NCBI GenBank assembly: GCA_024710805.1
Contig: JANJUB010000106.1
Span: 1-37,349, forward strand
Length of the DNA: 37,349 nt
Source: Fimbriimonadaceae bacterium
GTDB lineage: Bacteria; Armatimonadota; Fimbriimonadia; Fimbriimonadales; Fimbriimonadaceae
Direction of reading: 5' to 3'
Position numbers and translations under genes: made by a program. The notes under the pieces were generated by a model that saw only the letters and a program-made list of their open reading frames with translations, was not told where the DNA came from and ran no database searches. How positions within the stretch are numbered: the stretch's first letter is position 1; every line of letters starts with the position of its first letter. Of the stretch, positions 22,235 through 31,673 are shown piece after piece.

Positions 22235-23254
22235 GTGCAACTGACCGTACTGGGGGCTGGAAGCTGGGGAACTGCGCTCGCGATTCTGCTCGCGCGGAAC
22301 GGCCACGAGGTAACGCTCTACGGCCGTGACGACGAGGAAATCCAGGCGATGTCTTCGATTCGCGAGAACATGGCCTATCTGCCCGGGTTCGTCTTGCCTC
22401 CGGGTGTCAGCTGCGTTTCGAACGCGGAGGACATCGGCGAGACCGACGCCTGGATTGTCGCCGTGCCGTCGACCAGCGTCCGCGCGGTAGCTGGCCTGAT
22501 CCGAGGCAGCGATCCCCTGGTCGTTGTCGCATCCAAGGGGCTCGAGACCGGCACTTCGATGCTTCTGAGCCGAGTGGTGAAAGAGGTCATTCCGGGCGCA
22601 CGCATCGGTGCGTTGAGCGGCCCCAACCTCGCGATCGAGATCGTACGCGGGATCCCGACCGCTGCGGTGTGTGCGTTCCCTGATGCGGCCGACGCTGAGC
22701 GAATCCGCGCCGCGTTCATGTGTCGCACGTTCCGGGTGTATGTGAGCGACGACATCATCGGCGTCGAGCTTGCGGGCTCCCTGAAGAACGTGCTCGCGAT
22801 CGCCGCCGGCCTATGCGACGGGCTGGGCTTCGGTGACAACACCAAGGGCGCACTCTTGGCGCGTGGCCTCCATGAGATGACCTCGCTTGGACTCGCCATG
22901 GGGGCGCGGATCGACACCTTCCTGGGCGTAGCCGGGGTCGGCGACCTGTTCGCAACCGCCGTCTCGACCCTAAGCCGGAACTACCGGGTGGGTCGATCGC
23001 TGGGCACGGGAGCGTCGCTTTCCGATGCGCTGCACCAGGTCGGACAAGTGGCGGAAGGGGTCGGAACGAGCGAATCCGTGATGGTGTTGGCGCGGCGCTA
23101 CGGAATCCCCATGCCTACCTTTGAGGCGATCGAAGCGGTCATCAGGGGGCGGGTTCGCCCGAACGACGCGGTCCAAATGCTGATGGAGCGCTCGCCTCGA
23201 ACCGAGGCGATTTTGAGGTTGGGAACTGGCGTAGAAGAACCGAACGTACAATAG
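22235..23254 (+). CDS. gpsA: NAD(P)-dependent glycerol-3-phosphate dehydrogenase
   Basis: 339 residues, full length. It reduces dihydroxyacetone phosphate to sn-glycerol-3-phosphate for phospholipid synthesis. The Rossmann motif is LGAGSWGTALA (7-17), followed by VVVASKGLE with K101, ALSGPNLAIEI and the catalytic K184 in VELAGSLKNVLAIAAG; GDNTKGALLARGLHEM is also conserved. The start is GTG at 22235 with GAGGTGG seven bases upstream, inside the previous gene's end. The last codons contain the likely -10 box of the following sigma factor gene. Confidence 0.96.
   Translation: MQLTVLGAGSWGTALAILLARNGHEVTLYGRDDEEIQAMSSIRENMAYLPGFVLPPGVSCVSNAEDIGETDAWIVAVPSTSVRAVAGLIRGSDPLVVVASKGLETGTSMLLSRVVKEVIPGARIGALSGPNLAIEIVRGIPTAAVCAFPDAADAERIRAAFMCRTFRVYVSDDIIGVELAGSLKNVLAIAAGLCDGLGFGDNTKGALLARGLHEMTSLGLAMGARIDTFLGVAGVGDLFATAVSTLSRNYRVGRSLGTGASLSDALHQVGQVAEGVGTSESVMVLARRYGIPMPTFEAIEAVIRGRVRPNDAVQMLMERSPRTEAILRLGTGVEEPNVQ
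23222..23252 (+). promoter_or_regulatory. possible promoter of the sigma factor operon
   Basis: TACAAT (23247-23252) overlaps the gpsA stop codon and lies 22 bases before the sigma factor ATG. GGAACT (23222-23227) is followed 17 bases later by CGTACA, which resembles ECF-type GGAAC / CGTC promoters. If real, the sigma factor could transcribe its own operon, as RpoE and AlgU do. A housekeeping reading is equally possible. Confidence 0.35.
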
Positions 23255-23274
23255 GTGCAGGAAACTCAACCACT

Positions 23275-23874
23275 ATGCTAGGCGTGCTTTGGCGGGACCG
23301 TGGAAACACGGCGGAAGAGCGACAGGCTCGATTTGAGAGCCTGATGCGCAGCACCTATCGCCAAGCTTACAGCTTCGCCTCGAAGCTCACTGGCAATGCG
23401 GCGGAAGCCGAAGACTTGGTGCAAGAGACCTACGTTCGCGCTTTCCGGTTCTTCCACCGATTCGATGAGGCTCTACCTTTCACGAACTGGCTGTACCGGA
23501 TCATGAGCAACGCGCACATCGACCAAGTGCGCCGCAAGCAGCGAATCAAGACCAACAGCCTCGAGCAACCGACTGCGTCCGGGATGTCGACGATGGATAT
23601 TCCCGATACCTCGGTGACGGTTGATCGGATGATGGTGGATGAGGCGATGGGCGAGCACGTCACCGACGCCCTGTCGACCATGACGCCCGAGTTCCGAACC
23701 GCGGTTCTCCTCGCCGATGTCGAGGGCATGGCCTACGAGGAGATCGCCGAAGTGATGAACACCTCGGTGGGAACCGTGCGGTCTCGTATCCACCGCGGCC
23801 GCAAGCAGCTGCGGCGACACCTTTTGAATCACGCTCCCGAAGTGTACGGAGGCATGGCCAACGATGAACTGTAA
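23275..23874 (+). CDS. ECF-family RNA polymerase sigma factor (RpoE/SigW-like)
   Basis: 199 residues. Region 2 spans about 22-92 (LMRSTYRQAYSFASKLTGNA, EAEDLVQETYVRAFRFF, NWLYRIMSNAHIDQVRRKQ) and region 4 about 128-185 (MTPEFRTAVLLADVEGMAYE, EIAEVMNTSVGTVRSRIHRGRK). There is no region 3, as expected for ECF sigma factors. The ATG at 23275 has CAGGAA upstream. It overlaps the anti-sigma gene by 11 bases. With the two genes that follow it forms a sigma / anti-sigma / RseB-like set, so it probably directs an envelope-stress response (inference from context). Confidence 0.93.
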   Translation: MLGVLWRDRGNTAEERQARFESLMRSTYRQAYSFASKLTGNAAEAEDLVQETYVRAFRFFHRFDEALPFTNWLYRIMSNAHIDQVRRKQRIKTNSLEQPTASGMSTMDIPDTSVTVDRMMVDEAMGEHVTDALSTMTPEFRTAVLLADVEGMAYEEIAEVMNTSVGTVRSRIHRGRKQLRRHLLNHAPEVYGGMANDEL

Positions 23875-24319
23875 GCAAGTTGAATCAAAGCTGTCCGCGT
23901 ACCTCGATCAGGAGCTTTCCCGAAGCGAGCTTGCCATCGTGCGTTCGCACCTGCACGATTGCCCCGAGTGCGCCGTTGCGCTGGCCCAGTTGTCGCACCT
24001 CAAGGATTTGCTCGCGGTACAGCCCGATCCGGTGGCTCCCGACGGCCTCGAAGAGCGCCTGATGCAGGCGGTGTTTGCAAAGTCGCATCGTCCGGCTCCG
24101 CGTCGACTGGCGCTCGCTTGGGCGGGTTCGGCCGCGTTTGCGTGTGCTTTCGCAGGAGCGTGGATGTGGCTACAGGCCGCTGATGCCCGAGACACCGATC
24201 TGCGCAACCAGATGGCGAAGAGCGACTTTAACCTTGCCCGCGACCAGGCGTATGCCGCCGGCGGTGATCCGTTTGCCGGAAACACCGTCATCTTGACCTC
24301 GACCCATGGCGCGCGCTAA
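23864..24319 (+). CDS. zinc-finger anti-sigma factor (RseA/RsrA-type, one membrane segment)
   Basis: 151 residues. The N-terminal domain is a zf-HC2 anti-sigma domain: C3, then H29-x3-C33-x2-C36 in SHLHDCPECAVAL, the classic zinc motif. A transmembrane segment at about 84-104 (AWAGSAAFACAFAGAWMWLQ) leaves a short extracytoplasmic tail. It should bind the sigma factor encoded immediately upstream and hold it at the membrane until the tail is cut by proteases. The start at 23864 lies inside the sigma factor gene, and the stop lies inside the RseB-like gene, so the three are tightly coupled. Confidence 0.92.
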   Translation: MNCKQVESKLSAYLDQELSRSELAIVRSHLHDCPECAVALAQLSHLKDLLAVQPDPVAPDGLEERLMQAVFAKSHRPAPRRLALAWAGSAAFACAFAGAWMWLQAADARDTDLRNQMAKSDFNLARDQAYAAGGDPFAGNTVILTSTHGAR

Positions 24320-25391
24320 CTCTCTCCTGATTCTCGGCGGTGTCGCCTTTGCCCTGCTGGCTGGGTCGTCGTCGGCCTATGCCCAGCGTCGCGACGACGC
24401 CCGCGATCTGCTCTTCGGAGCGATGGACAAGGGCCGATACCTCGCCGTCGAGGGCATCATCCTCCGCCGCAACAGCACCCGCGACCCGGGCATGATGCAG
24501 CTGCGTATGGCGCAGGCGACCGGCATCTCGAAGACGGTCGTGCTTTCGCCGCTCTCCTTCCAGGGCGTGACAACACTGGATGACGGTCAGAACTGGATGA
24601 CCTACGTGCCCGATGAAAATCGTGTTGTGATCCAAGGTTCACCTCGGTTGATGGGCGGAACCAGCCGACGCAAACGAGCCGCCGCTTCCAGCTACCGATT
24701 TGTGTCCGACACGGGCGATACCATCGCGGGCCGCAAGACGATCGTGGTCGTTGCCACGCCGAAGTCACCCGAGATGCCCACCCGGCGCTACTGGATCGAT
24801 AGCGACTACCCATACATCTTGAAGATGGATGTGGTCGAGGGCGGCACCCCCAAGGTCCTCCTCGACACGAAGGCGATCACGTTCGAGGTGACCCCATCGC
24901 CTGATGCGTTCCGGATTACCCCGGCCACCGGAGTGCGGCGCATCTACTTGGAGTCTCCCGAGGCGATTCGATCTGCTGAGGCAGCAAAGGCGATGGTCGG
25001 ATTCACCCCAATCTTGCCCCGGAATCTCCCCTACGGATTCATCATCCAGGAAGGCCAGGTCGTAGGCGACAAGTCGGAGCGGTTCATTGCGCTTCGACTG
25101 ACCGATGGCCTCGCCTCGGCTACGCTCTATCAGTGGCCGATGTCGCGGAAGAATCCCGTGCCCTGCCAAGACAAGAAGAGCGTGCGCGAAGCCCATGGAC
25201 TCCGCATGCGCCTGGTGGGTGATCTGCCGGAAGTGGTGCTGACCAAGCTCATTGACGCTTTCGTCAAAGAGCTGGCGAAGGGACTTCAGTCCCTCTCGGG
25301 CACTTCGCAGGAAGATTCTGTGTTACCGGATGTAGATCGCGCGAGTCAGCGTGAGGGAAACGGCCCGGTTCCTTTCGGCGTTTCTCCCTAA
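24306..25391 (+). CDS. RseB/MucB-like periplasmic protein
   Basis: 361 residues with a signal peptide (LLILGGVAFALLAGSSSAYA, cut near 26). The body has the LolA/RseB-type half-barrel pattern: AVEGIILRRNSTRD, MTYVPDENRVVIQGSP, then TRRYWIDSDYPYILKMDVVE, where the RxxWID...P...K motif is the RseB/MucB hallmark. The C-terminal part (MVGFTPILPRNLPYGFIIQE) matches the small second RseB domain. RseB shields the anti-sigma factor from proteolysis and senses envelope damage in Proteobacteria. Its position right after the anti-sigma gene, with a 14-base overlap, supports the same role here. The last 40 residues are polar and probably disordered. Confidence 0.8.
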   Translation: MARANSLLILGGVAFALLAGSSSAYAQRRDDARDLLFGAMDKGRYLAVEGIILRRNSTRDPGMMQLRMAQATGISKTVVLSPLSFQGVTTLDDGQNWMTYVPDENRVVIQGSPRLMGGTSRRKRAAASSYRFVSDTGDTIAGRKTIVVVATPKSPEMPTRRYWIDSDYPYILKMDVVEGGTPKVLLDTKAITFEVTPSPDAFRITPATGVRRIYLESPEAIRSAEAAKAMVGFTPILPRNLPYGFIIQEGQVVGDKSERFIALRLTDGLASATLYQWPMSRKNPVPCQDKKSVREAHGLRMRLVGDLPEVVLTKLIDAFVKELAKGLQSLSGTSQEDSVLPDVDRASQREGNGPVPFGVSP

Positions 25392-25428
25392 GCGCTCGCG
25401 CGTCGGTTTCTCATAAGGAAAATCGCGC

Positions 25429-27009
25429 ATGAAGACCTCTCCCTTTTCGAAGAGCATGTTGACGGTGTTGGCGATCGGAGCCGTCATCGGCGGCTTCGCC
25501 GTTGCCAACCTCCAGCAAATCGTCCCTGCCGTACAGGCTGGCCCGGAAGCGCCGGCGGCCCGAGCGATTAGTTCGATCTCGGCGGAAAACATGACCGCCC
25601 TCCGAAACCTCGACGAGAGTTTCGCGAGCTTGGCCGAGTTTGTATCGCCTTCGGTGGTTCACATCAAGTCTGAGGGCAATGGCGGAGCCGACGTGTTCGG
25701 CCGTCGCGTTGGCCGTACCGGCGGGGTGGGCACGGGCGTGATCTTCCGTCCCGACGGATGGATCATCACCAACGACCACGTCGTCAACGGCTTTGACAAG
25801 GTCACCGTCGTCCTCGCGGATGGCCGAGAGTTCTCCGGCCAGGTTCGCCGGGCTGAGGAGAGCGACCTCGCCGTCATCAAGATCGAGGCGAAAGACCTGC
25901 CTGCGGCCAACTTCGGCGACAGCAACAAGGTTCGTCCCGGCCAGTTCGCGATGGCGGTTGGATCGCCGTTCGGCCTCGACAACACGGTTACGATCGGGCA
26001 CATCAGCGCCCTCAACCGTGAGAACAGCATTCCTGACCCGCGTCTGCCCGGTGGCGCGCGCTACTATCCGGATCTCATTCAAACCGATGCCCCGATCAAC
26101 CAGGGCAATTCGGGCGGTCCGTTGGTGAACATCGAGGGCCAGATTGTCGGCATCAACTCCGCGATCATCAGCTCGACCGGCGGAAGCAACGGTATCGGTT
26201 TCGCGATTCCGTCCAACTTGGCGCGATTTCTCGCCGAGACCCTGATCGAGAAGGGCAAGGTCGAGCGCGGCGCCATGGGCCTCATTCCGAGCAATCTGAA
26301 GCCGTACGAGAGGCAGAAGCAGAACCTGGACGGCGGTGCGGTCGTTGAGGAGATTCCCAACAACAGCCCTGCCGCGATGGCCGGGATCAAGAAGGGCGAC
26401 ATTCTCGTTCGGGTTGGCACCTTCCCGATCAAGAATCAGATGGACGTCCGGCTCGCGATGTACCGGTACGCCCCAGGCCAGTCGGTTGAAGTCGAGTTGA
26501 TCCGTGGCGGCGAGAAGAAGACGATCAAGGTCACCTTGGCCGATCCCAAGAAGCTGGACCGCGGAACGCCGAACCCGAACCCGACGCCGAACAAGTCGGA
26601 TGACGGCGAAGACAGCCCGTTCCAAGACTTCCCGAACATCCCCGGCTGGAACTTCGGCCCGCGGACGAACCCGACCCCCGAGAAGGACGTTCCTCCGATC
26701 CGGGAAGGTCAGGCTCGCTTGGGCATCCAGATGGATTCGCTGACCGCTGAGCGCCGCAAGGAGTTCGGCATCCCCGCCAACGTCGAGGGCGTGGTCGTCA
26801 TTGCCGTCGAACCGGGTTCTGTGGCGGAGCGACTCGGCATTGAGCCGGGAACCGTCATCCAGCAGCTGGGCGACAAGAAGATCAAGTCTCCGCAGGATGT
26901 CTCCGAAGTGATGAAGGGGCTGAAGTGGGGCGATCGCACCCGCATCTCTTACGGTAAGTTCACCACGAACAGCCAAATGCAGCAAACCACCGACGTCGAG
27001 TTCCGCTAA
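25429..27009 (+). CDS. HtrA/DegP-family serine protease with two PDZ domains
   Basis: 526 residues. An N-terminal signal or anchor segment (about 9-28) precedes a trypsin-like domain with catalytic H117 in WIITNDHVVNG, D146 in EESDLAVIKIE and S228 in NQGNSGGPLVNIEG. Two PDZ domains follow (about 285-375 and 425-515), separated by a Pro/Asn-rich linker (NPNPTPN, TNPTPEKD). DegP-type enzymes degrade or refold misfolded envelope proteins. The gene lies 37 bases after the RseB-like gene, with AAGGA before the ATG, just as mucD follows mucB in Pseudomonas. A terminator-like hairpin follows at 27030. Confidence 0.94.
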   Translation: MKTSPFSKSMLTVLAIGAVIGGFAVANLQQIVPAVQAGPEAPAARAISSISAENMTALRNLDESFASLAEFVSPSVVHIKSEGNGGADVFGRRVGRTGGVGTGVIFRPDGWIITNDHVVNGFDKVTVVLADGREFSGQVRRAEESDLAVIKIEAKDLPAANFGDSNKVRPGQFAMAVGSPFGLDNTVTIGHISALNRENSIPDPRLPGGARYYPDLIQTDAPINQGNSGGPLVNIEGQIVGINSAIISSTGGSNGIGFAIPSNLARFLAETLIEKGKVERGAMGLIPSNLKPYERQKQNLDGGAVVEEIPNNSPAAMAGIKKGDILVRVGTFPIKNQMDVRLAMYRYAPGQSVEVELIRGGEKKTIKVTLADPKKLDRGTPNPNPTPNKSDDGEDSPFQDFPNIPGWNFGPRTNPTPEKDVPPIREGQARLGIQMDSLTAERRKEFGIPANVEGVVVIAVEPGSVAERLGIEPGTVIQQLGDKKIKSPQDVSEVMKGLKWGDRTRISYGKFTTNSQMQQTTDVEFR

Positions 27010-27029: not shown

Positions 27030-27058
27030 CAAGCCGCTGGACTCAGTCCGGCGGCTTG
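27030..27058 (+). terminator. terminator hairpin after the protease gene
   Basis: CAAGCCGC-T-GGAC pairs with GTCC-G-GCGGCTTG around a TCA loop, giving 12 pairs plus one T-G wobble. It is followed by TTCGTTT. It starts 20 bases after the protease stop codon and separates this operon from polA. Confidence 0.75.
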
Positions 27059-29777: not shown

Positions 29778-31673
29778 ATGAGACTCGCCACCGGCATGGT
29801 TCTGGCGCTCGCGGTCACGATGGCCGCCGCCGAAGTCAAACTCGCTTCCCCGTTCTCGTCGAACATGGTCCTGCAGCGGCAGACCGAGGTGACGATTTGG
29901 GGTACGGCCGACCCCGGTGAGCAGGTCACCCTGCGAGCCACCTGGGGCGCCAACGGCAAAGCCACCGCCGACGACAAGGGTCACTGGCGCGTGAAGCTGA
30001 AGACTGGCCCCGCCGGCGGGCCCCACGAGTTGAGCGTCAGCGGGTCCAACTCCCTCTATCTGCGGAACATCTTGCTGGGCGAAGTGTGGGTGTGCTCGGG
30101 CCAATCGAACATGGAGTGGCCGCTGAACATCGTCGAGAACGGTCCCGCCGAAGTCGCCGCCGCCAACCACCCGAATCTGCGCTTCTTGACCGTGCCCCAT
30201 CGCATGGCCGATCAGCCGGAGACATCGTTCGCGGGCAGCTGGTTCGTGTGTCAGCCTGAGACCGCGCGGGGATTCTCCGCTACCGCTTACTACTTCGGTC
30301 TCGCGCTGCAGCGCGAGTTAGGCGTGCCCGTTGGCTTGATCCAGACCGCGGTCGGGGGAACTGAGGCCGAGCTTTGGACCAGCGAGGCAACCTTGCGATC
30401 CATGCCTGACCTAGCGGCCAGATTCGATGCTGTTCGTCAACGCTACCAAGAGGCACAAGACGCCGCAACCGAGCGTCGAAAGCGCCTCGCCGCCGATCCA
30501 GGGACAGGCAAATGGTCAGCCGACGAGATGGACGATCGCGATTGGCCCCGGATCACCGAGCCCGGCCTATGGCGCGAGGGCGACCTCGCCGACCTCGACG
30601 GCACCGTCTGGTACCGAGCGCGCCTGCTGCTGACCGACAGTCAAGCCAAAGAAGGTGGCACGTTGCGGCTTGGTCAAATCGACGATGAGAACGAGGTATG
30701 GATCAACGGCAAACCTGTCGGCAAGACCGCCGGAGCCAACCAAGAGCGGGCTTACGTGATCAAGCCGGAGGTCCTTCGCGAAGGGTTCAACACCGTGGCC
30801 ATACGCGTCACCGACATCGGAGGCGAGGCCGGCTTCCGCAACCCGAGCTCCATCGGCTTCTTCCCCAAGGAAGGATCGATTCCGCTGACGAACTGGCGCT
30901 ACCGGATCGGCGTGAAGACGAACGATCTGCCCGTTCCGTTCGGCGCACCCCGGCCCGGGGCAAGCCTGTACAACGGCATGATTGCGCCGCTGGTGCCCTA
31001 CACGATCAAGGGCGCGATCTGGTACCAGGGTGAGTCCAACGTCTCGCGCGCCGAGCAGTATCGCACCCTCTTCCCGGCGATGATCGGTGACTGGCGCAAG
31101 GCATGGGGCATGGAGATTCCATTCTATTTTGTACAGATTTCACCCTTTGAATATGGCCAGAATCACGCAAGCGCCGAGCTTCGCGAGGCTCAACTGGACA
31201 CGTACCGCACGGTGCCGATGACCGGCATGGCCGTCACCGCGGACATCGTTCCCAACCTGCGCGACATCCACCCAACGCTCAAACAGCCGGTGGGCGAGCG
31301 GCTAGCGAGGTGGGCGCTGGTGAACCAGTACGGCCGGAAGGACATCGTGCCCTCGGGACCGCTCTATAAGAGCGCGAAGCGAGATGGCAAGACCATGCGC
31401 GTGGAGTTCGACTTCGGTGCAGGGCTGACCGTAAAGGGCGACTCGATTTTCGGACTGGAGATCGCGGGCGAGGATCTAAAGTTCGTGGCCGCGCAGGGCA
31501 AGATCGAGGGGTCGACGCTGGTGGTTTGGGCGGATGGAGTCGAGAAGCCGGCGGCGGTTCGGCTCGGCTGGAAGGATGCGGTGCTGATGAACCTATTCAA
31601 CGGGGCCGGCCTTCCGGCTTCACCGTTCCGTACGGACTCGGCTCCGCGGCTGACCGCAGGCGTGAAGTGGTGA
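29778..31673 (+). CDS. secreted sialate O-acetylesterase-like SGNH hydrolase
   Basis: 631 residues with a signal peptide (LATGMVLALAVTMAAAE). The fold opens with SPFSSNMVLQRQTEVTIWG and WRVKL, then the nucleophile block GEVWVCSGQSNMEWPL with S110, then AVGGTEAELWTS. A jelly-roll insert of about 130 residues (TVWYRARLLLTDSQ, DENEVWINGKPVG) interrupts the catalytic domain, as is common in this family. Then IKGAIWYQGESNVSRAEQY, and the acid-base pair in DIHPTLKQPVGERLA. Members remove O-acetyl groups from sialic acids or other sugars; the real substrate could be an acetylated polysaccharide. Single gene with its own promoter box. Confidence 0.9.
   Translation: MRLATGMVLALAVTMAAAEVKLASPFSSNMVLQRQTEVTIWGTADPGEQVTLRATWGANGKATADDKGHWRVKLKTGPAGGPHELSVSGSNSLYLRNILLGEVWVCSGQSNMEWPLNIVENGPAEVAAANHPNLRFLTVPHRMADQPETSFAGSWFVCQPETARGFSATAYYFGLALQRELGVPVGLIQTAVGGTEAELWTSEATLRSMPDLAARFDAVRQRYQEAQDAATERRKRLAADPGTGKWSADEMDDRDWPRITEPGLWREGDLADLDGTVWYRARLLLTDSQAKEGGTLRLGQIDDENEVWINGKPVGKTAGANQERAYVIKPEVLREGFNTVAIRVTDIGGEAGFRNPSSIGFFPKEGSIPLTNWRYRIGVKTNDLPVPFGAPRPGASLYNGMIAPLVPYTIKGAIWYQGESNVSRAEQYRTLFPAMIGDWRKAWGMEIPFYFVQISPFEYGQNHASAELREAQLDTYRTVPMTGMAVTADIVPNLRDIHPTLKQPVGERLARWALVNQYGRKDIVPSGPLYKSAKRDGKTMRVEFDFGAGLTVKGDSIFGLEIAGEDLKFVAAQGKIEGSTLVVWADGVEKPAAVRLGWKDAVLMNLFNGAGLPASPFRTDSAPRLTAGVKW

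Follow-up and report, generated by a model that had tools for sequence, protein, structure and literature searches.

The window, meaning the whole 37,349-nucleotide stretch of contig JANJUB010000106.1 analysed here, carries a four-gene operon flanked by gpsA on one side and polA on the other (Table 1). The initial annotation listed an ECF sigma factor, a one-span zf-HC2 anti-sigma factor, an RseB-like protein and a two-PDZ HtrA protease in this order, and both the open reading frames and the Pfam domains agree with it. The first three genes overlap, by 11 bases between sigma and anti-sigma and by 14 bases between anti-sigma and rseB, which suggests co-translation; htrA starts 37 bases beyond the rseB-like gene. 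The operon likely ends at the hairpin after htrA, the one hairpin found; with a shuffle mean of 3.6, it is weak statistically. Elsewhere in the window, sialate O-acetylesterase (SASA) and glycoside hydrolase 2 N-terminal domains occur together in a large protein encoded at positions 29778-31673.

Table 1. Features of the operon, in window coordinates
Feature	Position	Strand	Basis
ECF sigma factor gene (SigE/SigH-like)	23275-23874	+	ORF list, Pfam, NCBIfam, PDB matches
Membrane anti-sigma factor gene (zinc domain, one span, tail)	23864-24319	+	zf-HC2, hydropathy
RseB/MucB homologue gene (N- and C-terminal domains, signal-like segment)	24306-25391	+	Pfam, orthologue profile
HtrA protease gene (two PDZ domains)	25429-27009	+	Pfam, NCBIfam, motifs
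Putative sigma-dependent autoregulatory promoter	23222-23250	+	Conserved site; overlaps gpsA 3' end
Conserved anti-sigma tail codons, candidate RseB-binding segment	24227-24316	+	Column conservation
Terminator-like hairpin 3' of htrA (13 pairs)	27030-27058	+	Hairpin search

The four-gene order recurs across Fimbriimonadaceae and a sister family. Placement in Fimbriimonadaceae, and so in Armatimonadota, follows from a genome of the same family (5.2 Mb in a single contig) in which the 20-base prophage core published for Fimbriimonas ginsengisoli Gsoil 348 (PMC4072686) occurs exactly twice, at a distance of 45.5 kb, in agreement with that publication. Almost every orthologous locus of families f1 and f5 keeps the order, a few loci being interrupted by contig ends, with HtrA undetected at L042 and L043. 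RseB proteins of these operons are mostly 19-36% identical, and gene order is kept nonetheless. Sampling of further families in the order and in the phylum showed the sigma/anti-sigma/RseB trio at all loci but two, L145 and L146, where the anti-sigma went undetected; HtrA was undetected at most trio loci sampled outside f1 and f5. The RseB profile described below matches 133 of 151 phylum genomes, a count of profile matches, with gene context seen at the sampled loci. Genomes of the same order also contain paralogous sigma/RseB sets that have no HtrA (L075-L081), in some of which the anti-sigma was not recognised by the search. One orthologous locus lies on JADZEW010000015.1, a metagenome-assembled contig titled "Methanoregulaceae archaeon isolate SJ84" that belongs to the same genus as the window; because it carries a bacterial sigma/anti-sigma operon, together with gpsA and polA, the archaeal label is almost certainly wrong.

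The third protein can be assigned firmly only with an orthologue profile, and no more than marginally from the window protein alone. Its Pfam MucB_RseB match (8.5e-5) reaches 22.6 bits against a cut-off of 22.3, a phmmer search of the PDB with this single sequence gave no matches, and a contig scan with the same query recovered one relative only. By contrast, a family profile built from 37 aligned orthologues retrieved MucB (6in8, 1.1e-9) and RseB (2v42, 2.9e-7) from the PDB and no other significant matches. The MucB matches are collinear through both domains; for RseB, the best stretch takes in part of the N-domain. An hhalign comparison of the family with Escherichia coli RseB (probability 94.6, E 6.7e-8) extends from the end of the N-domain over the entire C-domain. 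Pfam recognises the N-terminal LolA-like domain PF03888 in 31 of the 37 orthologues and the C-terminal domain PF17188 (MucB_RseB_C) in 16, the window protein alone not being among the latter. Two structurally conserved inter-domain residues of MucB, Y119 and D247 (PMC7400510), correspond to family positions Y130 (37/37) and D267 (36/37) at an offset of 17 inferred from the construct; at the same offset, R146 and Y147, which that study also names, aligned to no conserved family positions. Hydropathy places a signal-like hydrophobic segment at residues 6-24, followed by AYAQ. An AlphaFold2 model from two sequences was uninformative (pLDDT 31.6); whether the protein is RseB-like, which the initial annotation would have judged by fold, is answered by the comparison of profiles. 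On this evidence Armatimonadota, a phylum outside the Proteobacteria, has a real RseB/MucB homologue in the third protein, as anticipated in the initial annotation. Among the results listed in our literature search, no publication linked RseB with this phylum.

The sigma factor that accompanies it is of a different type from those that go with RseB in the Proteobacteria. Beyond its Pfam regions (Sigma70_r2, 1.5e-18; r4_2, 1.2e-17), its best NCBIfam match is PRK09647 SigE at 152 bits, below the cut-off of that model, and its 102.6 bits against the RpoE equivalog TIGR02939 (cut-off, 236) leave it outside RpoE. PDB searches returned SigH/SigE at 1e-33, with about 118 bits for Mycobacterium tuberculosis SigE/SigH chains, 66 for AlgU and 64 for E. 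coli RpoE. Judged by these scores, it is closer to mycobacterial SigE/SigH than to AlgU or RpoE.

Upstream of the sigma gene, GGAACT (23222-23227) and CGTACA (23245-23250) are separated by a spacer of 17, exactly as first annotated, and the proposal that they form an autoregulatory promoter gains from comparison of orthologous operons. GGAAC-N17/18-NGTA precedes sigma in 38 of 38 (shuffle mean for GGAAC..NGT, 4.4), mostly 31-75 nt upstream, and the stricter GGAAC..CGT in 31 of 38 (shuffle mean, 1.6). The site was also present, at -50 to -61, in all eight held-out family genomes, including Fimbriimonas ginsengisoli, three further loci having been left aside as repeats of earlier genomes. Beyond f1 and f5 it occurs at L108, L110, L111 and L113, loci with a close sigma, and is absent from most loci with a more distant one. 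Since ECF operons are in general autoregulated, the sigma factor would by analogy use this putative promoter. The loose motif shows no enrichment across the genome (445 occurrences versus 516 for a reversed control), so the credibility of the promoter comes from conservation alone. The strict motif occurs only five times in the window's genome; a broad regulon is therefore not evident.

The initial annotation suggested looking for the motif upstream of other envelope genes. Such a search gave a positive result for omp85/bamA only; strict sites in 12 genomes disclosed no recurrent regulon besides the operon. A single sigma site upstream of omp85/bamA prompted a test in 30 family genomes, in which sites of at least 12 bits preceded 6 of 29 omp85/bamA genes, one of two same-genus genomes having been dropped, versus 3 of 142 other genes (p 9e-4). 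When the prompting genome was excluded, the count was 5 of 28 (p 3e-3). Five thresholds were tried, 12 bits among them, and each gave p below 0.02. We regard this as moderate evidence, drawn from site counts, for a link between the sigma site and outer-membrane assembly. In single family genomes, strict sites also precede genes of BamA-like, membrane-fusion-like and TolC-like type (L198, L205, L206, L228).

The anti-sigma factor joins a zf-HC2 domain (7e-11) to one hydrophobic span at residues 82-100 and an extracytoplasmic part of about 48 residues with no evident similarity to MucA/RseA; the corresponding parts of MucA and RseA have about 89-97 residues (PMC7400510). Past the span, the linker at residues 104-121 is unconserved (1.08 bits per column), in contrast to the tail at residues 122-151 (1.96 bits per column; permutation p 5e-5). 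This conservation is not a by-product of overlapping frames, since rseB shares only the last few anti-sigma codons. We propose the tail as a candidate segment for binding of RseB or of a protease.

Taken together, these features point to an RseB-guarded, autoregulated envelope-stress response operon, a reading to which we assign a probability of roughly 0.7. Weighing against it are the marginal Pfam score of the window RseB, the uninformative structure model, the shortness of the anti-sigma's extracytoplasmic part and its lack of evident similarity to MucA/RseA, and the small number of strict promoter sites in the genome. The parts, their homologies and their conservation being read from sequence, we infer RseB-tail binding, cleavage and its order, the signal and the action of sigma on its site as follows. 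At rest, the zinc-domain anti-sigma would hold the ECF sigma at the membrane while the RseB homologue, in the periplasm, lies over the conserved tail and blocks its cleavage. Envelope damage, sensed as misfolded outer-membrane proteins and/or mislocalised lipid bound by RseB, would free the tail for a first cut by a membrane-anchored HtrA, either the operon's own or a DegS-like enzyme encoded elsewhere in the genome, and for a second cut by RseP. The freed sigma would then drive transcription of its operon from GGAACY-N16/17-CGTA, with omp85/bamA as a probable further target. The genome encodes an RseP equivalog (194.8 bits; cut-off, 147.6) and Omp85, which is found in 30 of 30 family genomes; with the lipid A genes of F. 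ginsengisoli (PMC4072686), we count the latter as support for a diderm envelope.

Which HtrA makes the first cut is evenly balanced. The operon protease combines a trypsin-like domain (Trypsin_2, 7.8e-33), a catalytic triad (His, TNDHV; Asp, DLAVI; Ser, GNSGG) and two PDZ stretches, the architecture of two-PDZ HtrA/DegP proteases, at 350.9 bits against TIGR02037, below the curated cut-off of 416.2. At G000:C10:61398-62534, the same genome encodes a second HtrA of 378 aa that is anchored at its N terminus and has a single PDZ domain, as in DegS. We give even chances to a variant of our explanation, differing only in which HtrA cuts, whereby this DegS-like enzyme is the site-1 protease and the operon HtrA a quality-control protease of the regulon. 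The DegP/MucD-like domain content of the operon HtrA and the existence of the separate anchored enzyme favor this variant, as do the many phylum trio loci without HtrA, from which it follows that the trio does not need one; but, as in DegS, a hydrophobic segment without an obvious cleavage site is retained at the N terminus of the operon HtrA (residues 10-28 in the window protein) in nearly all orthologues.

An intracellular signal is a less probable alternative. The sigma could be freed directly when the zinc cysteines are oxidised, as happens with RsrA or M. tuberculosis RseA, and RseB and HtrA would then act as downstream effectors. The zinc residues C3, H29, C33 and C36 are indeed invariant (Hx3Cx2C plus C3 in 39 of 39; at L107, among the more distant loci, the exact pattern is missing), the N-terminal Hx3Cx2C places the protein among class I zinc anti-sigma factors (ZAS), TIGR03988 RsrA matches it at 5.7e-11, below cut-off, the partner sigma is closest to SigH/SigE, and M. 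tuberculosis RseA is redox regulated (PMC10027907). Nevertheless, about 48% of the membrane-bound anti-sigmas of class I carry Hx3Cx2C, which is mixed across their tree and probably structural there (PMC7406223). A motif so common and scattered says little on sensing; its interpretation as Gram-positive-type sensing was thus not sustained, and a Gram-positive origin was dropped on the same grounds. The membrane span, the conserved extracytoplasmic tail and the adjacency of rseB to the anti-sigma gene across the phylum further make redox or zinc sensing unlikely. It is very improbable that the third protein, instead of guarding the anti-sigma, is a LolA-like carrier of lipids or lipoproteins placed in the operon by chance: RseB and LolA have a common N-domain fold and LolA_like PF17131 matches 9 of 37 members (0.027 for the window protein), but the second domain matches MucB_RseB_C and the E. 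coli RseB C-domain, LolA chains are absent from the significant PDB matches of the orthologue profile, and linkage to the anti-sigma extends over the phylum.

As a probable RseB-guarded operon, the locus is built like known systems without coinciding with any of them. Its equation with algU-mucA-mucB-mucD was right as to gene order: Pseudomonas aeruginosa algU-mucA-mucB-mucC-mucD has the same succession of sigma, one-span anti-sigma, RseB/MucB homologue and two-PDZ HtrA, and is autoregulated. It went too far in other respects, since the window operon has a SigE/SigH-like sigma, an anti-sigma that carries a zinc motif and is shorter on its periplasmic side, no counterpart of the mucC included in the Pseudomonas operon, and a CGTA -10 element in place of the TCTGA of RpoE/AlgU promoters. 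With E. coli rpoE-rseA-rseB-rseC and its DegS/RseP proteases it shares an RseB homologue adjoining the anti-sigma, a genome that also encodes RseP and an anchored one-PDZ HtrA, and omp85/bamA as a likely target; unlike that system, it includes HtrA, lacks rseC and draws its sigma and anti-sigma from other subfamilies. Bacillus sigma-W type promoters (TGAAAC...CGTA) have the same -10 element but a -35 different from GGAAC, and we know of no RseB in that system. Among sigma/anti-sigma/HtrA arrangements, M. tuberculosis sigE / rseA-htrA-tatB comes nearest, with the closest sigma type and an anti-sigma followed by htrA (PMC10027907). It differs in being without RseB, in that sigE and rseA are not co-transcribed (PMC10027907), and in the regulation of RseA by redox and PknB/ClpC1P2.

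Armatimonadota is a little-studied phylum, and its RseB modules, also found in the cultured F. ginsengisoli, sit on another sigma/anti-sigma lineage. RseB guarding has been studied in a few Proteobacteria. Somewhat short of even odds, we tentatively suggest that it is an ancient or transferable module and not an RpoE/AlgU invention, one that operates phylum-wide on zinc-type anti-sigmas of SigE/SigH-like sigmas and recognises a short motif in the C-terminal tail (around D127, D135-P136 and G139) that is unrelated to RseA/MucA. The phylum-wide set allows one to ask whether RseB-type sensing predates the RpoE system or was recruited twice, and the roughly 40 diverged anti-sigma tails form a natural panel to define RseB recognition.

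A strict site near ahcY is shared by two species of one genus but was not counted towards the regulon, as it lies near an S-adenosylhomocysteine (SAH) riboswitch. This riboswitch (RF01057, 46.7 bits) accompanies ahcY in both same-genus genomes (L134:1501-1760 and L130). Beginning about 190 nt upstream, the two species have a near-identical block that starts with GGAACTTTGG and ends in a hairpin-like repeat and a T run, perhaps a separate small RNA.
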